Positions 5,981-34,220 of a DNA stretch of 36,958 bases are shown here, in pieces (the first letter of the stretch is position 1; each line of letters opens with the position of its first letter). The notes beneath the pieces are model-generated. The model was not told the DNA's origin. It saw nothing but the letters and a program-made list of their open reading frames with translations, and ran no database searches. Position numbers and translations under genes: made by a program. Source of the DNA: Pseudomonadota bacterium (GTDB lineage Bacteria; Pseudomonadota; Gammaproteobacteria; Ga0077536); assembly GCA_029977665.1 (NCBI GenBank), contig JAPOKK010000007.1, positions 1 through 36,958 on the forward strand, read 5' to 3'.

Positions 5981-7698
<1,718 letters not shown>

Positions 7699-7702
<4 letters not shown>

Positions 7703-8055
7703 CGACACCGACGCTACCCGAACCGTTTGCCGAGCTGGCGCCGTTCTGCGCGACCTGGGTGCTGCCCGACTCGAACGCGCGGCACGCCCGACGCCTGGCG
7801 ACGGCCTACCCAGAGATCAAGGCGTTCTACGATGCCATGCTGGCCGTCGCGCCCGCTGCGCTCGCCTACCTGAGTGAACGCCAGCTCGGTCAGCTCGACG
7901 AGGCCGACGCCAACCTGCTCAAGCTGATGCTCGCCCTCGCCGAGGTCGGTCCCGCCGTCGAGTGGTACCAGCAACCGGCCGTCATCGACGGTTGGCCGGC
8001 AGAGCGTTTCCCGCTGGTCGAAGCGATTCCTGATACCGCCGCACAGGAGGTCTGA
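7699..8055 (+). CDS. unrecognised 118-aa protein between aminoacylase and Rieske oxygenase
   Basis: I do not recognise this protein. It is soluble, mostly helical in appearance and acidic, without signal peptide, membrane segment or Cys-rich metal site. It has an AGGAG site before the ATG, overlaps the stop of the aminoacylase by 4 nt and ends 2 nt before the Rieske gene, so its translation is coupled on both sides. Codon use looks like its neighbours. Its position suggests an accessory or structural partner of one of the flanking enzymes, for example a small subunit, but it does not look like the cystatin-fold beta subunit of ring-hydroxylating dioxygenases. That it is a real gene is nearly certain from the spacing; its function is open. 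Confidence 0.8.
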
Positions 8056-8057
8056 AC

Positions 8058-9296
8058 ATGTCCGCACGCCTCACTCCGCCCGATCTCACGGCGCGACACC
8101 CCGAACTCGGCACCGGTCCGGTGCCGACCGATATCTACTACGACCCGGCTTTCTACGAGCGCGAACTCGAAGCCATCTTCAAACGCGTGTGGCTGTGCAT
8201 GGGGCGGGTCGAACAGGTGCGCCAGGCCGGCGACTTCTTCGTCAAGGAAATTCCCACCTTCGGCATGTCCATCCTGGTCGTGCGCGGCAAGGACGATCGT
8301 ATCCGCGCTTTCCACAATGTCTGCCAGCACCGTGGCAACCACGTCGAGCTCAAGCGCGAAGGCAACTGCAACGTGTTCCGCTGCCCGTTCCACGGCTGGG
8401 CCTACGGTCTCGACGGGCGTCTGGCCGGCGTGCCGGACGCGGAGGGGTTCTACGATCTCGACCGCGACGCAAAAGGCCTGCCGGCGGTGCATCTCGATGT
8501 CTGGGAAGGTTTCATTTTCATCAACCTCGACGATCCGCCGTCGATGTCGCTCGAGGAATTCCTCGGTGAGCAGGGTAGTGACCTGGTGGGTTATCCGTTT
8601 CACCGCGGCACCCAGACCTTCGAGTACGAGGGCGTGGTCGGGTGCAACTGGAAGTGCATGGTCGATTCGTTCTGCGAAACCTACCACGTGCCGTTCCTGC
8701 ATAAGCGTTCCGTGACCGATACGCTGGCCGGCCCCGACAACCCGTTCGGCCGCCTCATCGATGTGCGTCTGAAGGGACCGCACCGCACCTCGTCGGTGGT
8801 CGGCAACCTGGCCTACCAGCCCAATCCCGTGCAGGGACTCGCGTTCCAGTACGCGCCCGGGCCGTCAGTGACCAGCGGCAGTGTCGACGAGGGCACGGTG
8901 CTGCCGAAAGGGCTCAACCAGACACGTGCGCCGAACTGGTCGATCGACGTCACAGTGTTCTTCCCGGGCTGGATCATCGTCATCGGCAGCGGCATGTACT
9001 TCACCCACCAGATGTGGCCGCTCGGGCCGAACGAGGTGGTGTGGCAGATGCGCGGCTTCCTGCGTCCGGCGTCTAACGCGGCACAGCGTTTCGGCCAGGA
9101 GAACTCGCTGGTCGAGCTGCGCGACGCGGTGCTCGAAGACGGCAACACGCTCGAACGCATCCAGCGCTCGTTGAAGCAGGGCCTGATCAAGGAGTTCGTA
9201 TTCCACGATCACGAACTCGCGCTGCGCCACCACTACCACACCGTCGTCAACTGGGTGGAACACTACGAGCGCACGGGCCGGGCCGGCGCGGCCTAG
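8058..9296 (+). CDS. Rieske non-haem iron oxygenase, alpha subunit type
   Basis: A 412-aa aromatic-ring-hydroxylating-type oxygenase. The Rieske [2Fe-2S] site is CQH (Cys89, His91), then 17 residues, then CPFH (Cys109, His112). The mononuclear iron site follows in the C-terminal domain: D203 in the bridge position, then ETYHVPFLH giving His210 and His215. These enzymes use electrons from a reductase to hydroxylate, demethylate or cleave C-N/C-O bonds; many single-subunit homologues act on quaternary amines, so the substrate is not necessarily aromatic. An AGGAGG lies in the end of the preceding gene. No ferredoxin, reductase or beta subunit gene is nearby, so the electron donor must be encoded elsewhere. 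The stop is 4 nt from the convergent amidotransferase. Confidence 0.93.
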   Translation: MSARLTPPDLTARHPELGTGPVPTDIYYDPAFYERELEAIFKRVWLCMGRVEQVRQAGDFFVKEIPTFGMSILVVRGKDDRIRAFHNVCQHRGNHVELKREGNCNVFRCPFHGWAYGLDGRLAGVPDAEGFYDLDRDAKGLPAVHLDVWEGFIFINLDDPPSMSLEEFLGEQGSDLVGYPFHRGTQTFEYEGVVGCNWKCMVDSFCETYHVPFLHKRSVTDTLAGPDNPFGRLIDVRLKGPHRTSSVVGNLAYQPNPVQGLAFQYAPGPSVTSGSVDEGTVLPKGLNQTRAPNWSIDVTVFFPGWIIVIGSGMYFTHQMWPLGPNEVVWQMRGFLRPASNAAQRFGQENSLVELRDAVLEDGNTLERIQRSLKQGLIKEFVFHDHELALRHHYHTVVNWVEHYERTGRAGAA

Positions 9297-32818: not shown

Positions 32819-33169
32819 GTGTCGACCGTTCGTGATTCATCGAATGACGAGCCGCCAATGGCTCTGGTGGCGGCCGGCAAGAACCCGACCTGCTACCCGC
32901 AACGCAGGGCACGCCAAGACCCCGCGTTCACCTTCTTCGCGCTCGCAGACGTCGGGGGACATCCAATCAACGGCGAGGCGGACCGGATCTCGACGACCGG
33001 CAGCCCGGTACTCGAATCGGCGATCGCCCACGTCGAATGCGGGCTGGTGCATACTTACGCGGCAGGCGGTCACGCGGTGTGCGTCGGCGAAGTGGTTGAT
33101 GCCGGTGGGCACGACATCCCCGCCGGACGCCTCGACAACGCCGGCCTTACACCGGCGGACCGCTGCTAG
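32819..33169 (+). pseudogene. truncated flavin-reductase-like remnant
   Basis: The middle of this 116-codon frame reads TTGSPVLESAIAHVECGLVH followed by AAGGHAVCVGEVVDAG. This matches the second half of HpaC/FMN_red-type flavin reductase domains (G.PVLE.ALA..EC......GGDHT..VGEV). The N-terminal half, with the FMN-binding strands, is missing, and the first 30 codons look random. There is no ribosome site at the GTG start. It begins 3 nt after the metallopeptidase stop and ends about 175 nt before the selenoprotein. I read it as a decayed or transferred fragment. A functional short protein is the less likely alternative. Confidence 0.55.
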
Positions 33170-33344
33170 AAGATTTTCTACGGCGGCTCATCGCCACTGG
33201 CGGGGGGGGGAACGAAAAGATCCCCGCGTCAGGCCAGCGATGCGGAGACGCCTCGTCAGCGATGCGCCACGTCCCGAGGTGACCGACCCGTTGCGCGGCG
33301 CCGCCCAGGCGCTACATTGGCAGCTTGGACACAGGGGATACATC

Positions 33345-34220
33345 ATGTTGCAACGTCGCACCCATCCATCGTTCGTGCGCTACATCGACAAGAGTCGCGA
33401 ATACTACGCCGCGCACGGTTATGACAAACCCTATGCGTGGGCGCACTACGCCGATGTGCCGTTCTGCGGTTTGTCGAAGCCGCTCGCGGAATCCCGCATC
33501 GGACTGGTCACGACGGCCGATCGCGCGCCGCGCGAACAGGGGCGCGATGCGCGGCTCTACGCCGAGCCGGTGGAGCGCAGTGAACCGCTGTATACCGAAA
33601 TGTTCTGGGACCGCGACGCGACGCATACGGACGACCCGGAGTCCTTCCTGCCGCGCGCCAGCATGGCGCGGCAGCGTGATGCCGGACGCATCGGCAGCCT
33701 GAGCCCGCGGTTCTACGGCCTGCCGACCGATTACAGTCAACGCCGGACGCTCGAGCACGACGCACCTCGAATCGAGGCTTGGATGCGCGAGGATGGCGTC
33801 GAAGCGGCGGTACTCGTTGCGCTTTGACCCGTGTGTCACCAGACCGTGAGTCTGGTCGCACGACATCTGGAAAGCCGGGGGATCCCGTCGGTGGTTATCG
33901 GTTCGGCGCGCGATATCGTCGAAGAATGCGGTGTAGCGCGCTTTCTATTCGTCGATTTCCCGCTCGGCAACCCCTGTGGGAAACCCTGGGATCGCGGCAT
34001 GCAAGATGCCATCGCCTCTGCGGCGCTGGATCTCTTGGAACGCGCTTATGTCCCGCGCACCACCATCCAGCGCCCGGAGATCTGGAACCCTTCGGATGAC
34101 CTTGGCTGGCGCGACAACTTCATGCGCGTCGACTACAGCAATCGCGCGGCGCTCGCGCGCGCGGGCCAAGCGCGGCGGCGCGCACAAGCCGCGGCGAAAG
34201 CCGGGCAGTCGGACGGGTGA
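33345..34220 (+). CDS. selenoprotein of the GrdB/PrdB-like reductase family (Sec at codon 161)
   Basis: Read through the in-frame TGA at 33825-33827, this is one 291-residue protein. The ORF track splits it at that TGA, but its two ORFs (ending 33827 and starting 33831) share a frame. Before the TGA come PFCGLSKPLAESRIGLVTTA, THTDDPESFLPRA and RIGSLSPRFYGLPTD. After it come PVCHQTVSLVARHLESRGIP and FLFVDFPLGNPCGKPWD. Together they match the whole length of the glycine/sarcosine/betaine/D-proline reductase selenoprotein B superfamily. The TGA stands just before the helix leading to RGIPSVVIG, where GrdB and PrdB carry selenocysteine, and gives the redox motif U-P-V-C. A hairpin follows at the right distance. 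The ATG has AGGGGA at 7 nt. Aerobic bacterial homologues have no known substrate; a dithiol/selenothiol reductase is the inference. A single nonsense mutation is the alternative. Confidence 0.88.
33825..33862 (+). promoter_or_regulatory. candidate bacterial SECIS element after the Sec UGA
   Basis: Right after the TGA lies a hairpin with a perfect 6-bp upper stem, CCAGAC / GTCTGG, and a 5-nt loop CGTGA (33845-33849). The stem extends downward through an A-U pair, one C-C mismatch and five further pairs including two G-U, to 33832/33862. The loop starts 18 nt after the UGA and has G at its second position. Both agree with the known bacterial SECIS layout, where a small stem-loop within about 16-37 nt of the UGA is bound by SelB. 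The hairpin is inside the coding sequence, as bacterial SECIS elements must be. Confidence 0.72.

Follow-up and report, generated by a model that had tools for sequence, protein, structure and literature searches.

The question raised by this locus is whether a TGA triplet lying between two consecutive open reading frames (ORFs) works as a selenocysteine (Sec) codon, and what kind of enzyme the joined product would be in a host that seems to live aerobically. The window, i.e., the whole stretch of 36,958 nucleotides analyzed here (contig JAPOKK010000007.1 of a Pseudomonadota bacterium), was initially annotated from its letters alone, and that initial annotation had joined both ORFs into a single selenoprotein gene related to GrdB and PrdB, with Sec in a U-P-V-C motif and a hairpin behind it. 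The features of the gene are the following:

33345..34220, forward strand: PrdB-like selenoprotein gene, with ATG at 33345, Sec161 encoded by TGA, and stop codon TGA at 34218-34220; 291 amino acids when translated with TGA as U.
33333..33338, forward strand: Shine-Dalgarno-like site AGGGGA, 6 nt 5' of the ATG, as read off the sequence.
33825..33827, forward strand: in-frame UGA taken as selenocysteine codon 161, in a column holding only Sec or Cys and aligned with Sec151 of PrdB.
33834-33836, forward strand: codon of Cys164, which completes U-P-V-C.
33838..33856, forward strand: putative SECIS apical hairpin, seen by folding, as an inverted repeat and by covariation, with the full stem in 0 of 19 Cys forms.

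The first ORF, whose last nucleotide is 33827, and the second, which begins at 33831, share one frame and are split solely by the TGA at 33825-33827. When this TGA is translated as Sec, 33345-34217 encodes 291 residues and U161 lies in ...AVLVALUPVCHQTV..., so that the active-site motif of the protein reads U161-P-V-C164-H-Q. A congeneric genome (G001) carries an orthologue with the identical TGA and 93% identity, and the dN/dS ratio against it is about 0.05 on the 5' side of the UGA and about 0.11 on the 3' side; therefore, both halves of the gene are under purifying selection. The same TGA is also found in homologues from Syntrophaceae and Smithella metagenome-assembled genomes (MAGs), at about 58–62% identity.

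We aligned 55 homologues drawn from the family of the window organism, from other proteobacteria, and from the Syntrophaceae and Smithella MAGs, and column 161 holds Sec in 36 of them and Cys in the remaining 19, with no other residue. On a tree built with the Sec/Cys column masked, at least four Sec/Cys changes are needed, and therefore Sec and Cys have been swapped repeatedly. Outside of the motif, D97, H165, Q166, R173, D190, and R199 are invariant. The host genome (G000) holds a second Sec-type PrdB-like gene (L063, contig C135, 469-1338) with the motif UPVCHQ, together with a Cys paralogue (L064, contig C386, 8168-8971, minus strand) whose motif is CPLDHQT, with Asp replacing the resolving Cys. 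This paralogue retains the nucleophile. The UxxC motif is found in most members; given the Asp of C386 at the second motif position, a selenenyl-sulfide of the UxxC type is not universal in the family, and the first motif position appears, from the sequence of the C386 paralogue, to be the indispensable one.

Directly behind the UGA, the arms 33838-33844 and 33850-33856 (ACCAGAC/GTCTGGT) form a stem of 7 bp closed by the loop CGTGA (CGUGA in the RNA), which starts 18 nt 3' of the UGA, while a weaker lower stem extends the structure to 33833-33861. From the window alone this hairpin is modestly unusual, with a folding z-score of -2.2 and with 4.7% of synonymous recodings attaining 7/7 pairs; across the family it is strong, and the family pattern is the argument. 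Among 26 distinct Sec-form sequences, 96% of the pair cells are standard pairs, and when the partner is slid by 1–3 columns just 15–34% remain paired. In these same 26 sequences, compensatory substitutions (C-G to U-A and G-C to A-U) affect two of the hairpin pairs and account for 8 cells, where shuffling yields 1.8 on average. All seven pairs are present in 26 of the 36 Sec forms and six of seven in the remaining 10, while none of the 19 Cys forms has the complete stem and five of them reach 6/7. The minimum free energy does not separate the two forms (means of -15.3 kcal/mol for Sec and -14.2 kcal/mol for Cys); conserved pairing at a fixed position does separate them.

The host genome G000 contains all of the genes needed to read such a codon, with selA, selB, and tRNA-Sec sharing one contig:

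C15:8403, host genome G000: selA.
C15:9797, host genome G000: selB.
C15:13001, host genome G000: tRNA-Sec, anticodon TCA.
C312:1348, host genome G000: selD.

Two further selenoprotein genes with an in-frame TGA, of the UGSC family, were found in the same genome (L107 on C99 and L108 on C282), both just below the NCBIfam cut-off (121 bits against 125). In the family of the window organism selA was detected in 26 of 29 Sec-form genomes, and elsewhere in 4 of 4, i.e., in 30 of 33 overall, the three Sec-form genomes without a detected selA being 81–87% complete; among Cys-only genomes it was found in 1 of 15, and all these counts are phylogenetically non-independent. The 22 genomes sampled from other families of the class had neither the Sec form nor selA. 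The sole exception among the 15 Cys-only genomes is G343 (L097), which has the Cys form together with selA.

Thus, the reading of the two ORFs as one gene broken by a TGA without a change of frame is sustained by the reading frame and by the dN/dS ratios against G001; Sec in U-P-V-C is upheld by the Sec/Cys-only column, the covarying hairpin, and the host Sec machinery, and the hairpin itself by the fold, the inverted repeat, and the family covariation. A sequencing error at the TGA, or a pseudogene stop in a true Cys protein, as might be thought from the 442-contig draft that yielded the window and from the existence of Cys homologues, is rejected as very improbable, given that the TGA recurs in many separate assemblies (36 homologues), that the part of the gene 3' of it is under strong purifying selection in relatives, including against G001, that the downstream hairpin shows both conservation and covariation, and that the host has the Sec machinery. 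We conclude that the window gene is almost certainly a genuine selenoprotein gene with UGA161 decoded as Sec.

As for the kind of protein, the NCBIfam PrdB profile TIGR04483 matches the window protein with an E of 5e-17 and 62 bits, where the equivalog cut-off of 300 is not reached, and weaker matches to GrdB/F/H follow. TIGR04483 is matched by all 33 aligned members (E<=0.01), and PF07355 (GRDB) by 26 of these 33 at E<=0.1 (best 6.5e-10); the window protein itself gave no PF07355 match at the Pfam gathering score. U161 aligns with Sec151 of the PrdB proteins of Terrisporobacter and Peptoclostridium (loci L112 and L111), and window residues 96-233 align with positions 82-220 of the PrdB profile. 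By its homology over the Sec-bearing part and its Sec/Cys-P-x-C-H-Q motif, the window protein is placed within the PrdB/GrdB-like superfamily, and the initially proposed homology to PrdB and GrdB, with Sec at the equivalent column, agrees with both the profiles and the PrdB alignment. Sequence searches of the PDB returned no relative of the window protein. AlphaFold2 models of five sequences were poor (mean pLDDT 45), and with a query model of that mean pLDDT of 45 Foldseek gave no match against the PDB at E<=0.001.

The differences from the known members are considerable. Compared with PrdB, the window protein shares 24–26% identity, reads U-P-V-C-H-Q where PrdB has U-G-T-C-H-R, and has about 290 residues instead of about 240, and no PrdA was found in its genome. 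GrdB, GrdF, and GrdH (PF07355, selenoprotein B of glycine, sarcosine, and betaine reductase) show weak homology to it in the C-terminal Sec-bearing part, but they are themselves of about 430 residues and are partnered by GrdE, whose family was not found in the window genome. The UGSC family (NF041046) also consists of UxxC selenoproteins and received a borderline profile match from 1 of the 33 members, but its proteins are much shorter and it is represented in the host by its own two separate genes.

The initial annotation had also noted the lack of a grd or prd partner. PF09338, the family of the pyruvoyl partners PrdA and GrdE, was not found in G000, while the positive control, PrdA in the Terrisporobacter plasmid record W01, was detected, so that the absence of a PrdA/GrdE-type partner from the host genome stands with a working control. 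In seven further family-bearing genomes PF09338 was not found either, in a search whose controls were silent. These results bear on the idea that the protein is a true subunit of a D-proline or glycine reductase and that its PrdA/GrdE-like partner went unrecognised elsewhere in the genome. The alignment of its Sec with that of clostridial PrdB and the E value of 5e-17 would speak for it; the score far below the equivalog cut-off and the missing PF09338, in the host as well as in those seven genomes, speak against it, and we regard it as improbable. Therefore, by the available tests, the window protein is no D-proline reductase subunit.

As the genome search recovered no pyruvoyl subunit of the PrdA/GrdE type, the protein is unlikely to act on glycine or D-proline through the established imine chemistry. 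A reaction different from that of the clostridial reductases, as proposed at the outset, would be plausible in view of the absent partner subunit; a literature search found no reaction described for the PrdA-less members. Taken as a whole, the explanation that we favor with good confidence is that of a genuine selenoprotein acting as a stand-alone Sec/Cys redox enzyme of the GrdB/PrdB superfamily; its part that the enzyme, redox or nucleophilic, works alone without a PrdA partner is a fairly probable one, and any single substrate class is at best tentative. In the mechanism that we propose, SelB and Sec-tRNA would read UGA161 by virtue of the hairpin directly 3' of it. The selenol of Sec161 would then attack a small electrophilic substrate, giving a selenenyl or Se-C intermediate; Cys164 might resolve this intermediate through a selenenyl-sulfide, to be recycled by a thioredoxin-type reductant.

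The genomic context offers some leads. The window surroundings contain a Rieske oxygenase, a luciferase-like monooxygenase, a PQQ dehydrogenase, and an acyl-CoA dehydrogenase, which would fit an aerobic host. The selenoprotein gene has no evident operon partner; a GGDEF protein gene lies downstream of it, and upstream there is one more ORF:

32819..33169, forward strand: upstream ORF with a partial flavin-reductase-like match, to positions 94-134 of 153 of PF01613 only.

In the congeneric locus L051, no ORF like it was picked in the interval separating the selenoprotein gene from its upstream neighbour; it is probably not part of the system and is possibly a remnant. A conserved operon partner was sought in 33 neighbourhoods and none was universal, the neighbours differing by lineage. 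In eight loci (L091, L093, L099, L100, and L102-L105), belonging to two families of the phylum of which one has the Sec and the other the Cys form, the next gene downstream, in the same orientation, encodes a CoA-transferase III, about 56% identical between families, and genes for enoyl-CoA hydratase, CoA-ligase, or acyl-CoA synthetase are neighbours in L018, L019, L060, L062, and L106. In L106, the Cys form is preceded by an AMP-binding ligase gene and followed by UPF0261 and PEP-hydrolase-like genes (7067-8281 and 6222-7049). Different genes flank the annotated plasmid copies of Roseomonas and Haematobacter. In Roseomonas (L109, 8878-10350), the Cys form adjoins selO (protein adenylyltransferase) in convergent orientation. 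The acyl-CoA and carboxylic-acid gene neighbours are a weak lead to function.

One specific form of the stand-alone enzyme would therefore place it in acyl-CoA or carboxylic-acid catabolism, where selenolate attack might expel N, S, or halogen as the leaving group from the position adjacent to a carbonyl, in analogy to GrdB and to FarB, a GrdB-like protein for which a role on fluoroacetate has been proposed (PMC10838667). The eight CoA-transferase loci and the five loci with other CoA-related neighbours point to it; however, the window gene itself has no such neighbour, genes of this type abound in these genomes, and the Roseomonas and Haematobacter copies depart from the pattern, so that we hold this form to be rather doubtful. 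The other specific form, an antioxidant of general thiol/selenol type that reduces peroxides or disulfides and merely shares the GrdB/PrdB fold, is tentative but slightly more credible: the UxxC motif, the aerobic-looking surroundings, and weak Thioredoxin_3 matches in 4 of the 33 members (best E 0.0066) are consistent with it, whereas the profiles favor PrdB/GrdB and not thioredoxin or peroxiredoxin, and the six invariant residues outside of the UxxC motif suggest a specific substrate pocket.

We suggest keeping in mind that the protein belongs to a family that is, contrary to the initial annotation, neither undetected nor undescribed. RefSeq names the Cys relatives of Roseomonas (WP_207415257.1) and Haematobacter (WP_035710215.1) "glycine/sarcosine/betaine reductase selenoprotein B family protein"; these share with the window protein 45–46% identity over nearly 90% of the length, the position of the motif, and likewise the lack of grd or prd neighbours, while differing in having Cys in place of Sec. 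No paper was found in a literature search on that family name. PrdB selenoproteins with UXXC proved abundant in surface water: 42 genes were counted in the Sargasso Sea survey of 2005 (PMC1088965), and 235 PrdB Sec genes with 110 Cys homologues in the GOS survey of 2008 (PMC2398784); we infer the place of these proteins in the PrdA-less subfamily from a likeness of label and motif, not of sequence. Anaeromyxobacter and Geobacter were also listed as carrying "proline reductase" selenoproteins in a 2006 survey (PMC1794560). Therefore, this kind of protein was already known.

In summary, two split ORFs are corrected to one gene. With its Sec and Cys orthologues and the complete stem in the Sec forms only, the family of this gene amounts to a clean experiment of nature on SECIS function. 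It is conceivable, though for now speculative, that a widespread PrdA-less family of PrdB-like Sec/Cys proteins in aerobic proteobacteria carries out a new selenol-based reduction, possibly on acyl-CoA substrates or on carboxylic ones substituted at the alpha position, and that its name, "proline reductase", has been wrong for two decades. Because the partner subunit is missing, the label "PrdB" in oxic genomes need not stand for D-proline reduction, and our results suggest that in many such genomes it may not; counts of Stickland-type metabolism resting on this label may accordingly be wrong. The function of the family can be tested through its Cys forms, which occur in complete genomes as well as in alphaproteobacteria available in culture.
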